A stretch of 64,000 nucleotides of DNA from Oleiharenicola lentus. Lineage in GTDB: Bacteria > Verrucomicrobiota > Verrucomicrobiia > Opitutales > Opitutaceae. Positions within the stretch are counted from its first letter, which is position 1, and each line of letters starts with the position of its first letter. Position numbers and translations under genes: made by a program. Below are positions 9,866 through 56,200 of the stretch, piece by piece. The stretch is taken from assembly GCF_004118375.1 (NCBI RefSeq), contig NZ_SDHX01000001.1, positions 1,553,693 to 1,617,692 of the forward strand, read 5' to 3'. A model generated the notes under the pieces. It did no database searches, had not been told where the DNA came from, and was given only the letters and a program-made list of their open reading frames with translations.

Positions 9866-9967
9866 GGAAAACCTGAAACTTGAAACCTGAGACCTGAAGC
9901 TCGGAACGAAGCATACTCTGTCTGGCTATTTCAGGTTTCCGGTCTCAAGTTTCCGGTCTCGTTTCCT
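9866..9967. repeat. Inverted repeat, GAAACCTGA family
   Basis: The left arm (9867-9899) has ACCTGAAACTTGAAACCTGA-type words. The right arm (9929-9967) has the reverse complements TCAGGTTTCC, AAGTTTCC and CGGTCTC. The centre contains GAACGAAGCAT, resembling GAATGAAGCACGCAT in the element at 10979-11069. It fills the gap between potA and the ATPase gene. Confidence 0.75.
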
Positions 9968-9973
9968 CGCCCC

Positions 9974-10975
9974 ATGATCGCCGCCGTCCAGTTCCGGAAC
10001 TTCAAGGCCCTGCGGTCCACGGGCGTGAAACTTGCGCCGTTCAACCTCGTGCTCGGACCCAACGGCAGCGGCAAGACCAGCCTCATCCAGGCGCTGCTGC
10101 GGTTGCGCTCGCTGGCGGCGCTGCCCCCGGCCGCGGAGCCGCCCGCCGCGAACGGCGGACCCCGCATCGATTTCGCGTTCGCGGCGCCTTATCAGGACAT
10201 CGGCGTGTCGCTGGGTTGTAATCCCGACGAGATGGTCTGCAATGTTCTCTCCGTGAGCCACCCGCCTGGTCCGGCCGGCGCGGCGCATTGGGAGGATTTG
10301 CGCACCAAAATCCGCTCCATCCGTGCCTATCTGTTCGACCACTACGCCATGGCGGTGCCGGCGAAATTGTCCGACAGCGCTGAGCTGGCCTCGAACGGCG
10401 GCAACCTTGCCGTGGTCCTGGCCACATGGCGGGAAAAACAGCCCGAGGCGTTCGCCGCGCTGCAGGCGGAGTTTCTCCGGCTGATGCCGGAGTTCGGTGC
10501 GCTGGAGGTCCGAACCGGTCCCGGCGGTACCGTCGAGCTGGGCACGCGGCTCAAGACGAACGGCCACAATTTCATCACCGCCGACAACCTCTCCCAGGGC
10601 ACGCTCTACCTGCTCGCGCTGCTGGTGCTGGCCTTCACTCCTGCGCCCCCCGCCGTGGTTTGCATTGAAGAGGCTGACCGCGGCATGCATCCGCGCTCGC
10701 TGCGCGAGGTGCGCGACACGCTTTATCGGCTCAGCTACCCGCAGGATCTCGGCATGACGCGCACGCCGGTGCAGGTGATCACGACCACGCATTCGCCCTA
10801 CCTGCTCGACCAGTTCCGCGAGCAGCCGCAGGAGGTCATCCTCGCCAGCAAACAGGGCCAGGCGGCTACCTTTGAGCGGTTGTCCGACCGGGCCGACATC
10901 CTGGAATTGATGAAGGAAGCGCACCTCGGCGACCTCTGGTATACCGGCATCCTCGGCGGCGTGCCGGGAGAGTGA
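9974..10975 (+). CDS. OLD/RecF-like AAA ATPase, likely partner of the following TOPRIM-like protein
   Basis: A 333-residue ATPase of the AAA_21/OLD-like group. Visible motifs: Walker A GPNGSGKTS (residues 28-36), ABC-type signature NLSQGT (205-210), Walker B VVCIEEAD (228-235) with the catalytic glutamate, and the H-loop TTTHSP (270-275). The N-terminal IAAVQFRNFKAL strand is typical of RecF/SMC-like ATPases. There is no long coiled coil and no fused TOPRIM domain. The next gene encodes a TOPRIM-like protein, so the two together would give the ATPase plus nuclease combination of OLD, Gabija and PARIS-type defence systems (inference). Repeat elements flank both genes. No housekeeping family fits better. 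The ATPase call is firm; the role is unproven. Confidence 0.85.
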   Translation: MIAAVQFRNFKALRSTGVKLAPFNLVLGPNGSGKTSLIQALLRLRSLAALPPAAEPPAANGGPRIDFAFAAPYQDIGVSLGCNPDEMVCNVLSVSHPPGPAGAAHWEDLRTKIRSIRAYLFDHYAMAVPAKLSDSAELASNGGNLAVVLATWREKQPEAFAALQAEFLRLMPEFGALEVRTGPGGTVELGTRLKTNGHNFITADNLSQGTLYLLALLVLAFTPAPPAVVCIEEADRGMHPRSLREVRDTLYRLSYPQDLGMTRTPVQVITTTHSPYLLDQFREQPQEVILASKQGQAATFERLSDRADILELMKEAHLGDLWYTGILGGVPGE

Positions 10976-10978
10976 GAG

Positions 10979-11069
10979 GGTTGAAACCTGAGGATGTGAA
11001 ACCTGAAACCTGAAGAATGAAGCACGCATATCCTCACACCTTCATACCCTCACCTCCTCCGATCCTCCG
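10979..11069. repeat. Inverted repeat, GAAACCTGA / TGAGGATG family
   Basis: The left part carries TTGAAACCTGAGGATGTG and GAAACCTGAAACCTGA. The right part carries TATCCTCACACCTTCA, TACCCTCACCTCC and ATCCTCC, the complements of the GAGGATG words. The core is GAATGAAGCACGCAT. It separates the ATPase gene from the TOPRIM-like gene. Confidence 0.7.
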
Positions 11070-11084
11070 GTGTCTGCGCCTTCC

Positions 11085-11723
11085 ATGAAGCTCGCCATCC
11101 TCAGCGAATCCCCGGCCGACGAGGCCGCCCTGCACGTGCTGGTGGGCTACGTGCTGGGCCGGCCGTTCACGACGGTGCAGGCGTCGCTGCGGGCGCGGGG
11201 CTGGCCGTCGGTCGAGCAGGTGCTGCCGCCGATCGTGCGGCATCTTCATTTCAACACCGATGCCGACGGCCTCGTGGTCGTGGTGGATTCCGATGACTCG
11301 GTGGTGCACACGCCGGAACACGAGGCGCCCGGCTATCACCATGCGTTTTGCCGGATCTGCCGGCTGCGCGCGGTCTTCCGGCGGGCCACGAAAAACCTGC
11401 CGCCCGCCCGCGGACGCGAGCGCGTCTTGCGCGCCGTCGGCCTGTGCGTGCCGGCCATTGAGGCCTGGCTGCTCTGTGGCCACGACACCTCCGTAACCGA
11501 ACAGGCCTGGCTCGACGGTCAGGCCACCGGCCAGCTGCCCTACACTCGGCGCGAGCTAAAATGGCGCGTCTATGGCACGGAGCGTCCGTCGCTCCAGCAC
11601 GAGACGCAGCGGGCCGTGGAAGAGGTGTCTCGCCACCGCGGCGATGTGCGCCGGCTCGAGAACGATTTTCCCCACGGCTTCGGCGCGCTGGCCCGCGACC
11701 TGCGGGGGTGGCCGGTCACCTGA
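11085..11723 (+). CDS. TOPRIM-like (DUF4276/RloB-type) putative nuclease
   Basis: A 212-residue protein without a named family in plain sight, but with the hallmarks of a small TOPRIM domain. The first strand ends in a conserved acidic residue (KLAILSESPADEA, Glu8), the third strand carries the metal-binding pair in LVVVVDSDD (Asp68, Asp70), and a later block VPAIEAWLLCG (122-132) resembles the IEAWLL motif of RloB/DUF4276/DUF4435 proteins. TOPRIM domains bind Mg2+ and cut or ligate nucleic acid. The ATG is chosen; an in-frame GTG lies 15 bases upstream. It follows the ATPase on the same strand across a repeat. Together they are a candidate two-component nuclease module. The fold is inferred from motifs only. 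Confidence 0.65.
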   Translation: MKLAILSESPADEAALHVLVGYVLGRPFTTVQASLRARGWPSVEQVLPPIVRHLHFNTDADGLVVVVDSDDSVVHTPEHEAPGYHHAFCRICRLRAVFRRATKNLPPARGRERVLRAVGLCVPAIEAWLLCGHDTSVTEQAWLDGQATGQLPYTRRELKWRVYGTERPSLQHETQRAVEEVSRHRGDVRRLENDFPHGFGALARDLRGWPVT

Positions 11724-15265: not shown

Positions 15266-17896
15266 ATGCAATCCCACGGCCCCAAGCGCATCTACACTCC
15301 GCAATCGCTGGATTTCTGGTTTGGGCGCATGGAAGTGGAGTGGGAGGAGCAGTTTGACGCAGGCCACGTCGAGCGTGGCCACGCGATGTATCGGGACAGC
15401 GAGATCCGCGAGGTCGAGCTGGGCGCCAAGGACGCGATCATCCACCGCCGCGTGGACAAGAAGGAGGAATATGCCGTCATCGAGTGGGACGGTGACACGA
15501 TCAAGGTCCGCTCCTCCTCGACTGACGAAACCCTGGCCAATGCCATCGCCGTGGCGGGTTTGCACGAGATCGAGGAGTTGCTGGTGGACGAGATGCCTTC
15601 GCTCCTGCCGGGCGTTCCGCCCAAGGTAAAGGGAGTCAACGGCCAGAACGGCCATGCGACGGCCAACGGTGCGAACGGTCACGCGGCCGCCAACGGCAAC
15701 GGCGGCGCCAAGGTTGATCCCAACCAGCCTGCGCGCGACCTGCTGCTGAGTTTCACGGCCAACGCCGACGGCCTCGTCTTCCTGGCCTACTGGAAGAACG
15801 GCAAGAATCGCATTCCGGCCCTCGGCAACACCACGCACCACCCCAGCGCCACGGAGAGGGCCAAGCTCATCGCGCTGGCCACCTACGCGCGCAAGGCCCA
15901 CTTCCGCTACAACCAGACAACCCACGCCTACGCACTCGACGCGCTGGCCGACATCCCGGGATTTCTGCGTGACCTGCTGCCGCACTGGAAAAAGCAGTTC
16001 GCCATCGAGATCGACGCCAAGGTCGAGAGCATCAAGCAGGGCGCCCGCACCATCGAGATCGAGGCCGTCGCCGACAAGCGCGCCGGCAGCAGCGGCGGCC
16101 TGAACCTGCGCTGGATTTTCCGCGCCGGCGAAAAACTTCTCACCGACGAGCAGGCCGCCGCCCTCCTCAAGCACGGCCGCACTCCCATGCTTCTGCCCGA
16201 CCTCGGCATCGTCACGATGGCGCCCGAGAAGTGGGAGGGCTACCAGCAGTGGAAGCGCAGTCTCGAGGAGGCACAGTCCGGCGGCGAGGTGCCGCCCTAC
16301 CTGATTTTCTCCCTCTTCAACGACCAGCGCATCAAGGTCACGCTCGGGCCCGAGATCGAGGCATGGCGGCAAAAGGTGCTGACCGCGCCCTCAGCGCCGC
16401 CCGAGCTGCCCGATTACCTGCGCAATTACCAGCGTCGCGGCGTCGAATGGATGCATCACCTGTGCGAGACCGGCTGCCACGGCTTGCTGGCCGACGAGAT
16501 GGGCCTGGGCAAAACCGCCCAGGTCATCGCCCTGCTCCGCGCCCGGCCCATGGGCCGGCACCGGCACATTGTCGTCTGCCCGGCGAGCGTGGTGCCGGTG
16601 TGGCGCGAGGAGATCGCCCGCTTTTTCCCGGGGGCCAGCGTCGAGATCCTGAAGTCGGGCCACGACTTCAAGCACCACAAGTCCTACTGCATCTGGCTCG
16701 CCAGCTACACCCAGCTGCGCAAACACCGCGCGCTGCTCGACACGACCGACTTTGGCTACGCCATCCTCGACGAGGGCCAGTTCATCAAGAACCCCGATGC
16801 CAAGGTCACGCAGTCCTGCTTCGCCCTGCGCGCCGAACACCGGCTGGTCATGACCGGCACGCCGCTGGAGAACCGGCAGCTCGATCTTTGGTCCATCTTC
16901 CGTTACCTGTTGCCCGGCCTGCTCGGGTCGCGCTCAGCCTTTGAGGCGGCGCTCATCCAGGACCGCGACGGCACGATGCGCCGGCTGCGCCAGCAGGTCG
17001 CCCCATTCATCCTGCGCCGCACCAAGACCGAGGTGGCGACCGAGCTGCCGCCCAAGGTCGAGATGGATCTGCTCTGCCCGCTCACCGAGGTGCAGCGGGC
17101 CGAGTATGCCCGCATCTGCACCGAGGGCCTGGCCCGGCTGGGCGAGGACATCGGTCTCGCGCTGCGCGAGAAATCTTTCGGCTTCCTCGCGTTGCTCACG
17201 CGCCTGCGCCAGGTCTGCTGCGATCCGGACCTGCTGCCGTGGCTCCACTCACCACTCTCCGACAGCGGCAAGCTCCAGCTGCTCGTTGAAAAGCTTCAGG
17301 AAGTCGTCGGCAGCGGCCACAAGGTCGTCATCTTCTCGCAGTTCGTGACCCTGCTGGACCGCGTGCGCGAGGCGCTGCAGTTGCATTATCCGGAGCTGGC
17401 GCGCTACGAGATCACGGGCATGACCGTGGACCGGCAGAAGCCGGTGAAGGATTTTCAGTCCGCGACCGGCGCCGCCGCCATGCTGGTGAGCCTCAAGGCC
17501 GCCGGCACGGGCATCACGCTGCACGCGGCGGACTACGTGTTCCTGCTCGATCCGTGGTGGAACCCCGCGGTGGAGGACCAGGCGATCGACCGCGTGCATC
17601 GCATCGGCCAGACCAACACCGTGTTTGTCTATCGCATGGTGACCGCCGGCACGATCGAGGAGCGCATCCAGGCCCTGAAGTCCGAGAAGCGCCAGCTCTT
17701 CAACCAGGTCGTGGGCGGACACAGCGGCGATTTCGAGTGGACCAAGCACTTCAAGTCGCTGCACAGCCTCATCGAGCTCAGCGCCTCCGTGGCGACCGAG
17801 AACGAGACCTATGGCCCCGCCGCGCCGGCAGTCGCGGCCGAGCCCGCCTCCGCGCCTGCGACCCCTGCGGCAACGCCCACCGGCCCGCAGGCTTGA
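15266..17896 (+). CDS. SNF2-family DEAD/DEAH ATPase with degenerate SWIM-like N-terminus
   Basis: An 876-residue Swi2/Snf2 DNA-dependent ATPase. Walker A is DEMGLGKTAQ near residue 410, and the DExx box reads ILDEGQ near 502, with Gly where DEAQ or DEAH is usual. The HelicC half ends in DPWWNPAVEDQAIDRVHRIG (motifs V-VI). The N-terminal 110 residues (ERGHAMYRDSEIREVELGA, then a strand and VRSSSTDETLANAIAVAGLH) align in layout with the SWIM zinc domain of bacterial SNF2 proteins, but the CxC and CxH ligands are gone. A linker near residues 125-150 is made of NG/NGH repeats, and the tail is Pro/Ala-rich. Such proteins remodel nucleoprotein or displace RNA polymerase; the specific role here is unknown. 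No nuclease or methylase gene is adjacent. Confidence 0.88.
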   Translation: MQSHGPKRIYTPQSLDFWFGRMEVEWEEQFDAGHVERGHAMYRDSEIREVELGAKDAIIHRRVDKKEEYAVIEWDGDTIKVRSSSTDETLANAIAVAGLHEIEELLVDEMPSLLPGVPPKVKGVNGQNGHATANGANGHAAANGNGGAKVDPNQPARDLLLSFTANADGLVFLAYWKNGKNRIPALGNTTHHPSATERAKLIALATYARKAHFRYNQTTHAYALDALADIPGFLRDLLPHWKKQFAIEIDAKVESIKQGARTIEIEAVADKRAGSSGGLNLRWIFRAGEKLLTDEQAAALLKHGRTPMLLPDLGIVTMAPEKWEGYQQWKRSLEEAQSGGEVPPYLIFSLFNDQRIKVTLGPEIEAWRQKVLTAPSAPPELPDYLRNYQRRGVEWMHHLCETGCHGLLADEMGLGKTAQVIALLRARPMGRHRHIVVCPASVVPVWREEIARFFPGASVEILKSGHDFKHHKSYCIWLASYTQLRKHRALLDTTDFGYAILDEGQFIKNPDAKVTQSCFALRAEHRLVMTGTPLENRQLDLWSIFRYLLPGLLGSRSAFEAALIQDRDGTMRRLRQQVAPFILRRTKTEVATELPPKVEMDLLCPLTEVQRAEYARICTEGLARLGEDIGLALREKSFGFLALLTRLRQVCCDPDLLPWLHSPLSDSGKLQLLVEKLQEVVGSGHKVVIFSQFVTLLDRVREALQLHYPELARYEITGMTVDRQKPVKDFQSATGAAAMLVSLKAAGTGITLHAADYVFLLDPWWNPAVEDQAIDRVHRIGQTNTVFVYRMVTAGTIEERIQALKSEKRQLFNQVVGGHSGDFEWTKHFKSLHSLIELSASVATENETYGPAAPAVAAEPASAPATPAATPTGPQA

Positions 17897-53274: not shown

Positions 53275-56200
53275 TCAACCCACCCAACTCCGGGCGTTGT
53301 AGAACAGCTGCATCCAGGGGCTGTCCTCGCTCCAGTCCTTTGGCGACCAGCTCATGCAGGCGCTGCGGAAGACGCGCTCGGGGTGGGGCATCATGATCGT
53401 GACGCGGCCGGAAGGGGTCGTGAGCGCGGTCATGCCGAAGGGCGAACTGTTCGGGTTCAGCGGATAGACCTCCGTCGGCTGGTGGTGATTGTCCACAAAC
53501 CGGGCGGCAACGAGGCCGGAGGCGCTGAAGGCGGCGGCCGCGGCGGTGTCGGGGAACTCGGCGTAACCCTCGCCGTGGGCGACGGCGATCGGGATGACGG
53601 AGCCTTCCATGCCGCGGAACAGGACGCTCGGGCTCTTCTCGATCTTCAGGGAAACGAACCGGCCCTCGTAGCGCTCGGACTTGTTCTGCACGAAACGAGG
53701 CCAGTGCTCCGCGCCGGGGATAATCGTCTTGAGGTTGCTGACCATCTGGCAGCCGTTGCATACGCCGAGGGCAAAGGCGTCCTCGCGGGCGAAGAAGGCG
53801 GCAAACTCGGAGCGGGCGCGGTCGTTGAAGAGCGCGCTCTTGGCCCAGCCTTCGCCGGCGCCGAGCACGTCGCCGTAGCTGAAACCGCCGCAGGCCGCGA
53901 GGCCGCGGAAGTCCTTGAGCGAGACGCGGCCGGCGAGGATGTCCGTCATGTGGACATCCACCGCGCGGAAGCCGGCGCGGGTGAAGGCCGCGGCCATCTC
54001 GACCTCGCCGTTCACGCCCTGCTCGCGAAGGATCGCAACCTTGGGCGGAGAAACCTGAGACCTGAGACCTGAAACCTGAGTGGCGGCGGCCTTGATATCG
54101 AAAGTGACAACCGGACGGATGCCGGGATTCTTCGGGTCGAGTCGGACCTGGTGTTCCTGCTCGGCGTGCGCGGGGTTGTCGCGCAAGGTGGCGATGCGAC
54201 GCGTGACGTCGGACCAGATGGCGCGGAGGGCGAAGAGGTTTTCCTCGACGAGCACCTCGCCATTCTGGGTGACGCGGAACGAGTGGTCGGGGTTGAGCGT
54301 GCCGAGCCGCGAAACACATGCTTTCAGGCCGTGCGAGCGGAAGGCGAGCAGCACGTCGTCGAGGTCCGACTCGCGGACTTGCACGACGGCGCCGAGTTCC
54401 TCGTTGAAGAGGGCGGCGAACGGCTCGTGCAGGTGTGGAATCTCGAGGCTCACCCCGGTGTGGCCGGCGAAGGCCATCTCGACGGCGGTGGCGAGCAGGC
54501 CGCCGTCGGAGCGGTCGTGGTAGGCGAGGAGCTTTTGTTCGCGGCCGAGCTGCTGGATGACGTTCCAGAAATTCTTCAGGTCTGTCGCGCTGTCCACGTC
54601 AGGCGTGGCTTCGCCCATCTGCGAGACGACCTGGGCGAGGATCGAACCGCCGAGACGGTTCTTTCCGCGGCCAAGGTCGATGAGCAGGAGGACGGTCTCG
54701 TCGAGCTGCTGCAGCTGCGGCGTGAGCGTGAGCCGGATGTCGGTGACGGGCGAGAACGCGGAGACAATGAGCGAAATCGGGGCGGTGATGCGTTTCTGCT
54801 GCTCACCGTCCTTCCAGACGGTGCTCATGCTCATCGAGTCCTTGCCGACGGGGATCGTGATGCCAAGGGCGGGGCAGAGTTCCATACCGACGGCCTGCAC
54901 GGCGGCGTAGAGGTCGGCGGCGTCACCGGGGACCGCGGGCGCGGCCATCCAGTTGGCGCTCAGGTTGACCTTGCCGAGGTCGCCGATCTGGGCGGCGGCG
55001 AGATTGGTGAGCGCCTCGCCGACGGCGAGGCGGGCCGAGGCGGCGGCGTTGTTGACGGCGACGGGCGTACGTTCGCCCATGGCCATGGCCTCGCCGGTGT
55101 AAACGTCGAAGGTCGCGGCGGTGACCGCGCAGTCGGCGACGGGCACCTGCCAGGGACCGACCATCTGGTCGCGCGCGATCAGGCCGCCGAGCGTGCGGTC
55201 GCCGATGGAGATGAGGAAGGTCTTGTCGGCGACGGCCGGGTGCGAGAGCACGCGGCGGACGGCTTCCTTAAGGGTCAGATCGCGGAGATCGAGCGGCTGC
55301 TGCGGACGCGGGAGGGAGGATTCCTTCCGATGCATGCGCGGCGGTTTACCGAGCAGGACCTCGAGCGGCAGGTCGATGGGCGTGTTCTTGAAATGCGGAT
55401 CTTCGACGACGAGTTTCTTTTCTTCGGTCGCCTCGCCGACGATGGCGTAGGGCGCGCGCTCGCGGGCGCAGAGAGCCTTGAAGGTCTCGATGCGGTCGGC
55501 CGGGATGGCGAGGACGTAGCGCTCCTGCGACTCGTTGCACCAGAGTTCGAGCGGGGACATGCCCGGCTCGTCGTTGGGGAGCTTGCGCAGGTCGAATTTG
55601 CCGCCGCGGCCACCGTCGTTGACGAGCTCCGGCAGGGCGTTCGACACGCCGCCGGCACCGACGTCGTGGATAAAGGCGATGGGGTTGTCGGCGCCGAGCG
55701 CCCAGCAACGGTCGATGACCTCCTGGCAGCGGCGTTCCATTTCGGCGTTGTCACGCTGCACGCTGGCGAAGTCGAGGTCCTCACTGCCGTGACCGCTGGC
55801 CATGGAGCTGGCTGCGCCGCCGCCGAGGCCGATGAGCATGGCGGGGCCACCAAGCACGACGAGTTTGTCGCCCGGGTTGATCGCGCCTTTCTGGACATGG
55901 TCGCCGCGGATGTTGCCGAGGCCGCCGGCGAGCATGATGGGCTTGTGGTAGCCGCGGAGTTCAGAGCCGTTGGCGCCCGGGACCTGCTGCTCGAAGGTGC
56001 GGAAATAGCCGTTGATGGCGGGCCGGCCAAACTCGTTGTTGAACGCGGCGCCGCCGAGCGGGCCCTCGATCATGATGTCGAGCGCGGAGACGATGCGGCC
56101 GGGTTTGCCGAAGTCTTTTTCCCACGGCTGGATCGCGCCGGGAATGCGCAGGTTTGAAACGGAGAATCCAACAAGGCCGGCCTTGGGCTTGCCGCCGCGG

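Follow-up and report, generated by a model that had tools for sequence, protein, structure and literature searches.

An OLD/PARIS-type ATPase and a putative DUF4276-like, TOPRIM-patterned partner recur as a gene pair across the Opitutaceae

Introduction

Pairs of an ATPase and a TOPRIM protein are usually read as defence, and such suspected antiviral systems tend to be patchy in occurrence. Does such a pair in the chromosome of Oleiharenicola lentus act against phage, or does it serve the cell itself? The window analysed here, a stretch of 64,000 nucleotides of this chromosome, contains two neighbouring genes, here called A and B, which a sequence-only reading had put forward as a candidate anti-phage system composed of an OLD/RecF-like ATPase and a separate, small TOPRIM-like protein, flanked and separated by inverted repeats. 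Since the pair occurs in single copy, at a syntenic locus and for the most part consistently within genera, it provides a clean test between a machine that serves the cell and immunity that is inherited like household genes.

Results

Gene A encodes an OLD/PARIS-type ABC ATPase

Gene A and its motifs are located in the window as follows.

9974..10975, + strand: gene A, ABC/AAA_21 (OLD, HEC-01A-like) ATPase, ATG at 9974, stop at 10975, 333 aa
10055..10081, + strand: Walker A, GPNGSGKTS, residues 28-36, read from the sequence
10589..10600, + strand: ABC signature, LSQG, residues 206-209; S207, Q208 and G209 kept in 47-49 of 49
10655..10678, + strand: Walker B, VVCIEEAD, residues 228-235; C230, E232 and E233 kept in 46-49 of 49
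10784..10795, + strand: H-loop, TTHS, residues 271-274, kept in 46-48 of 49
10925..10966, + strand: C-terminal LGDLWYTGILGGVP, residues 318-331, common to ATPases of DUF4276 pairs

The Walker A, signature, Walker B and H-loop motifs that had been ascribed to an OLD/RecF-like ATPase are all present, and comparison of 49 distinct A sequences, the window's own among them, showed that the core residues G28, P29, G31-S36, S207-G209, C230, E232, E233 and T271-S274 are conserved in at least 46. The protein matches Pfam AAA_21 (E 2.5e-25) and, of the 124 PADLOC families that it matches at E <= 1, HEC-01A is the best model (E 2.4e-37), with PDC-M07A, AriA (E 8.1e-25) and mad3 next behind. Profile comparison with the PDB gave OLD (6p74) as the best match (E 2.8e-10). 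Foldseek analysis of the AlphaFold2 model of A (pLDDT 93) identified chains of the retron-Eco7/Ec78 complex as the best matches (E 4e-12 on) as well as Rad50 (3.4e-11), with TM values of 0.46-0.59 on the query. A is an OLD/PARIS-type ABC ATPase.

Outside the family, 17 A-like matches were found in 14 genomes at E <= 1e-12, among 80 genomes of the phylum that belong to other families. Going by their coordinates, 14 of the 17 have a DUF4276 match no more than about 115 nt away; the remaining three are in genomes G203, G237 and G213. Alignment of A with seven ATPases of DUF4276 pairs using hhalign extends over the full length (E 4.4e-35) and includes the C-terminal LG(D/E)LW...GG.P. The closest relatives of A that we found outside the family are therefore ATPases paired with DUF4276 proteins, the kind represented in PADLOC by HEC-01A.

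Gene B encodes a probable DUF4276-like, TOPRIM-patterned protein

The features of gene B are as follows.

11085..11723, + strand: gene B, putative DUF4276-like, TOPRIM-patterned protein, ATG at 11085, stop at 11723, 212 aa; so far found only in the window's family
11106..11123, + strand: motif 1, E8-SPAD-E13; E8, D12 and E13 kept in 52 of 52
11286..11297, + strand: motif 2, D68-S-D70-D71; all three Asp kept in 52 of 52
11307..11360, + strand: H75, H79, H86, C89 and C92, possible zinc site in the insert between strands 3 and 4; kept in 52 of 52
11457..11474, + strand: motif 3, IEAWLL, residues 125-130; E126, W128 and L130 kept in 52 of 52

The open frame begins upstream of the ATG, at GTG 11070 (217 aa). 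Residue counts are over 52 distinct B sequences, including the window's own, and they bear out the 212-residue second protein that had been described with Glu8, Asp68-x-Asp70 and IEAWLL, since these residues are near-invariant; in the 59-row alignment A3, D71 is nearly but not fully invariant. B does not reach the cut-off of any Pfam, NCBIfam or PADLOC model. The sole Pfam match for the window's copy is DUF7828 (E 0.1), which falls under its cut-off, and none of the PADLOC families, including HEC-01B (DUF4276) and AriB, matches at E <= 1. DUF4276 (PF14103) is absent from the Pfam matches of 25 A1 members at E <= 10, a search whose filters drop most matches above 0.1, and a PF14103 search of the window's genome gave no match.

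The TOPRIM pattern places a Glu after strand 1 and a DxD after strand 3. The acidic metal motif of TOPRIM proteins is discussed in PMC10568477. In the AlphaFold2 model of B (pLDDT 88.5, pTM 0.86) the elements run strand-helix-(short strand)-helix-strand, followed by an inserted His/Cys segment and then strand-helix. E8 stands just past strand 1 (residues 2-6) and is followed by a helix, D68-x-D70-D71 ends strand 3 (residues 62-68), and strand 4 (residues 116-122) is followed by EAWLL. Sequence and model together thus place the Glu and the DxD of B where the TOPRIM pattern has them, in support of the proposal that the ATPase has a separate, small TOPRIM-like partner. Foldseek searches of the PDB and BFVD with the B model returned no match at E <= 0.001, the best being unrelated Rossmann-like folds (TM about 0.25) and a Tupanvirus protein (2.8e-3), and PDB sequence searches with B or DUF4276 returned a nuclear receptor (E 0.75) as the sole match. 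Because Foldseek gave no significant match, the TOPRIM fold of B is a prediction drawn from element order and residue positions.

To relate B to DUF4276 we relied on profile alignment. hhalign of B against L219, a Pfam-positive DUF4276 protein whose adjoining ATPase is one of the A-like matches described above, gave a probability of 70 (E 4e-5) over 113 colinear columns, in which the three motif blocks follow one another in the same order; a motif similar to IEAWLL is present in DUF4276 relatives. BLASTP of the same two proteins reached only E 0.006 over 30 residues. When B was ranked against 240 targets, comprising 18 DUF4276 proteins and 222 controls (gene calls from the loci together with the 18 DUF4276 proteins reversed), ranks 1-4 were all DUF4276 (scores 37.8, 28.2, 26.5 and 25.8), the best control reaching 24.9; the second-ranked target matches over 16 columns only, and the scores of 14 of the 18 DUF4276 targets fall within the control range. 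Alignments of B with the main DUF4276 alignment and with L220 were not significant, and those with L205 and A6 were weak (probability 12 and 14, respectively). On these sequence comparisons B is probably a remote DUF4276-like protein, and its identity as a DUF4276-like TOPRIM protein is supported but not proven. Its nuclease activity is predicted, as is the binding of zinc by the His/Cys cluster.

A and B are almost always found together

Among 100 family genomes, one of which is the window's own, A and B were both present in 68 and both absent from 31, and a B fragment occurred alone in one (G047), with thresholds of E <= 1e-20 for A and E <= 1e-3 for B. The possibility, raised with the original proposal, that homologues of the two genes would rarely co-occur is not what the genomes reveal: across the family the two genes recur as a pair, far beyond chance. 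The genome collection gave 159 relatives, the best 80 of which make up the named loci, and A adjoins B in 78 of these 80. Most often the two genes meet in a 4-nt ATGA overlap (39 of the 75 loci examined), suggesting that they are translationally coupled.

In one assembly A and B are split between different contigs and both are intact. Here B (L118, 5054-5683) adjoins genes that by eye resemble those for ATP synthase, and the intact A (G456:C118; L245, 2929-3945) has no B within the 9 kb read there. In the genome of L088, B is present and a family-level A was not found. Both L118 and L088 come from metagenome assemblies and could therefore reflect mis-binning.

The locus is conserved and the repeats around it are incidental

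Downstream of the pair, a lipid gene encoding a PlsC + AMP-ligase protein is present in 86 of 100 loci and in 71 of the 80 named loci; counts are also given over the latter because at least four of the 20 loci L061-L080 duplicate named loci. An MFS part was found in one of two members scanned. Among 88 gene calls, 73 start within 1.4 kb of the B start and the farthest starts 6.5 kb away, and in three loci (L078, L151 and L153) the gene is called on the other strand. In the window's genome the lipid gene lies about 1 Mb from the pair (G000:C1:2539033-2541171), indicating that the gene order is broken just after B (after 11723). Upstream of the pair in the window are genes named by eye as a spermidine/putrescine-type transporter, an aldo-keto reductase-like protein and an AsmA/DUF748-like protein, and this order matches that of part of the relatives, transporter genes being present in 22 to 25 of 100 loci. 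Judged from the sequence clusters at the loci and from PADLOC scans of ten window proteins, the pair does not appear to keep company with defence genes.

Two further genes were noted in passing. Positions 15266-17893 of the window encode a SNF2 helicase-like protein that matches the PADLOC DpdE and ZorD models, probably owing to its generic helicase domain. What appears to be a separate pair lies at L244 (590-2772, genome G455), where another OLD-like ATPase precedes a small TOPRIM-like protein with the stretches LLADGPSDAAL and, further on, HRDAE.

Two repeat features accompany the genes in the window.

9867..9961, no strand: inverted repeat upstream of A, arms 9871-9898 and 9930-9957, intergenic, incidental
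about 10981..11020, no strand: repeat block between A and B, incidental

Together with a block at 54049-54079 these form the scattered window repeats, which have the form TGAAACCTGAAACCTGA. At up to 3 mismatches the window holds 12 matches, three of them at 54049-54079 and none between B and 54049, 42 kb further on. The inverted repeats that had been said to flank and separate the genes thus do lie upstream of A and between A and B, but not close downstream of B. The repeat 17-mer has five exact sites in the genome, two of which overlap, and only 15 of 247 sequences (the window, other loci of its genome, G071 loci and L081) contain a stricter version of the pattern. In relatives the gap between A and B holds different palindromes or other sequences, or there is no gap. 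We rejected the repeats as a component of the system, because they are scattered in the genome and relatives have other gap sequences or none.

In the genomes searched, the pair is confined to one family and is mostly consistent within genera

A was found in 59 of 82 high-quality genomes of the family and B likewise in 59 of 82, compared with 78 of 82 for the household yardstick PurL. In the phylum 28 of 387 genomes gave a match, all 28 belonging to the window's family; this search scored up to seven first-look candidates per genome and could therefore miss very remote relatives of B. The titles of the best 80 relatives are Opitutaceae, Opitutae/Opitutia, Verrucomicrobia/Verrucomicrobiota or member genera, with one plain 'bacterium', and judged from these named relatives the family that carries the pair is the Opitutaceae. 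No match was found in plasmid, phage and viral contig collections. Of the 30 genera with more than one genome, 25 are uniform for presence (mean 12.6 and maximum 23 in 5000 shuffles) and the other five are mixed; in the window's own genus, one of six genomes seen (G430, 99% complete) is without B.

Both genes are under purifying selection. Compared with L081, A has a dN/dS of 0.063/0.523 and B one of 0.042/0.481, and over four pairs the ratios are 0.12-0.36 for A and 0.09-0.19 for B. Distances among 57 named loci correlate between A and B (0.48), A and the lipid gene (0.59) and B and the lipid gene (0.475), values that none of 500 shuffles reached.

Comparison with PurL was carried out on 33 genomes, leaving out G065 because its A is in two pieces. 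The Mantel correlation is 0.586 for A versus PurL (reached by none of 1000 shuffles), 0.165 for B versus PurL (reached by 89 of 1000) and, in this set, 0.162 for A versus B (reached by 81 of 1000). Identity to the window's copy likewise follows PurL identity for A (0.74, n=24), the value for B being 0.15 (n=25, not significant). Eight genera are represented in the trees by at least two genomes; six of them form clades in the A tree and six in the B tree, against five in the PurL tree, the count for B including g3, where two identical sequences are grouped in the tree with no support value. The genomes G006 and G081, of one genus, stand together in the A and B trees and apart in the PurL tree, and the A tree splits the window's genus. 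Since B distances do not track those of PurL, transfer within the family may have occurred. Vertical descent is likely rather than proven, and its predominance in the inheritance of the pair is supported but not proven.

Discussion

A lineage-fixed pair and how it might work

The distribution of the pair is not that of mobile defence. It is single-copy and mostly genus-consistent, its household locus is conserved, it is under purifying selection and it was not found in the plasmid, phage and viral collections. The initial anti-phage proposal was in this respect half right, in that the parts resemble those of such systems without the behaviour of a mobile one, and the claim is weakened, not refuted. 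The best reading is a lineage-fixed, ATPase-gated nuclease pair of the known ATPase + DUF4276 kind. We put at roughly 60% the probability that the two proteins make up an ATP-gated nuclease module of this kind, with two components, that is a fixed chromosomal resident in Opitutaceae, where it may serve a household purpose or provide inherited immunity.

In such a module A, as an OLD/Rad50-like ABC ATPase, would be expected to dimerise on ATP, and would hold, load or position B, a predicted small TOPRIM-type two-metal nuclease with E8, D68 and D70. A change in the nucleotide state of A, or a bound trigger, might then release or activate B; such a trigger could come from a phage or from the normal life of the cell. 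Gating of B by A is proposed by analogy with PARIS/OLD proteins, which in PMC12409363 and PMC10568477 provide a model for a nuclease held by an ATPase and released. The split assembly (L118/G456) suggests that the pair could persist in Opitutaceae when its genes are separated.

Alternative explanations

The pair could instead be an ordinary HEC-01-type anti-phage system that is merely old in the family, with A sensing infection and B cleaving phage or host nucleic acid. The order of models closest to A, with HEC-01A ahead of PDC-M07A, AriA and mad3, and the place of B where DUF4276 would stand are in keeping with this explanation, which we regard as a serious contender at somewhat less than even odds, given that the pair has neither a patchy nor a mobile pattern, that its household locus is conserved and that no plasmid, phage or viral copies were found. 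HEC-01 is itself only a candidate defence system. Searches of the literature library on DUF4276 and on HEC-01 with PADLOC returned no paper, and a further one gave a paper on nano-silver and one on Vibrio cholerae, the latter naming only HEC-05 and HEC-06. B could also have another Rossmann-like fold, bind metal or zinc and act as a regulator of A, with no TOPRIM nuclease role. The missing Foldseek match to TOPRIM would fit this, as would the H75/H79/H86/C89/C92 cluster, which was not seen in the DUF4276 sequences that were aligned; the element order, the positions of E8 and DxD and the motif-level similarity to DUF4276 proteins speak for TOPRIM and make such a regulator unlikely.

RecF and RecR are an ABC ATPase and a TOPRIM/zinc protein, and this superficial parallel of parts could suggest that A and B substitute for them in recombination. 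Since recR (216.3 bits) and recF (281.5 bits) are present in the genome, each with a score above cut-off, we rejected this replacement, which retains hardly any credibility. Nor do A and B appear to be unrelated household genes that are neighbours by accident. B lacks an adjoining A in two of the 80 named loci, as chance neighbours might, but presence and absence agree in 99 of 100 genomes, the 4-nt overlap is frequent and DUF4276 systems have the same pairing pattern, so that accident is very improbable.

Comparison with known systems

The fixed ATPase-gated pair that we favour is closest to HEC-01 (PADLOC: AAA ATPase HEC-01A + DUF4276 HEC-01B). HEC-01A is the best model for A, and B stands where HEC-01B would, with motif blocks in common with some DUF4276 proteins; in contrast, B matches no PADLOC model at E <= 1, and the A-B locus is not patchy but fixed in one family. 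An arrangement of this kind is not without precedent, as ATPase + DUF4276 pairs are already in PADLOC as HEC-01. The present analysis extends this kind to a branch of B missed by the Pfam, NCBIfam and PADLOC models used, and pipelines built on these models will likely call B hypothetical. Gabija GajA, class 1 OLD and PtuA (Septu, retron) are related to A through their ATPases, but GajA and OLD have the TOPRIM fused to the ATPase and PtuA, unlike A, has an HNH partner.

PARIS AriA/AriB (class 4 OLD) also has its ATPase and Toprim as separate genes, as PMC10568477 describes, and the AriA model matches A. However, A is nearer to HEC-01A than to AriA, B has no match to AriB, and AriB cleaves tRNA (PMC12409363), whereas the nuclease activity of B is predicted from sequence and model.

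Cran1 (class 5 OLD, Sulfolobales) provides a parallel in distribution. According to PMC12796447, it is an OLD-type ATPase/TOPRIM protein that is vertically inherited in one order and acts in the cell cycle, not in antiviral defence. It differs in being a single fused archaeal protein whose putative operon partner is a membrane protein, and its tree follows the species tree, unlike the weak correlation of B with PurL. Tentatively, and with more doubt than confidence, the pair might be an OLD-like ATPase and a TOPRIM-type nuclease that the Opitutaceae drew from the defence repertoire and domesticated for a near-core function outside immunity, such as the maintenance of DNA or chromosomes. It would then be the bacterial counterpart, in two separate genes, of the archaeal Cran1, and B would represent a new branch of DUF4276-like nucleases that carries zinc. 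With a vertically inherited OLD-type protein serving as a cell-cycle factor in Cran1, the distribution of the A-B pair is worth testing.
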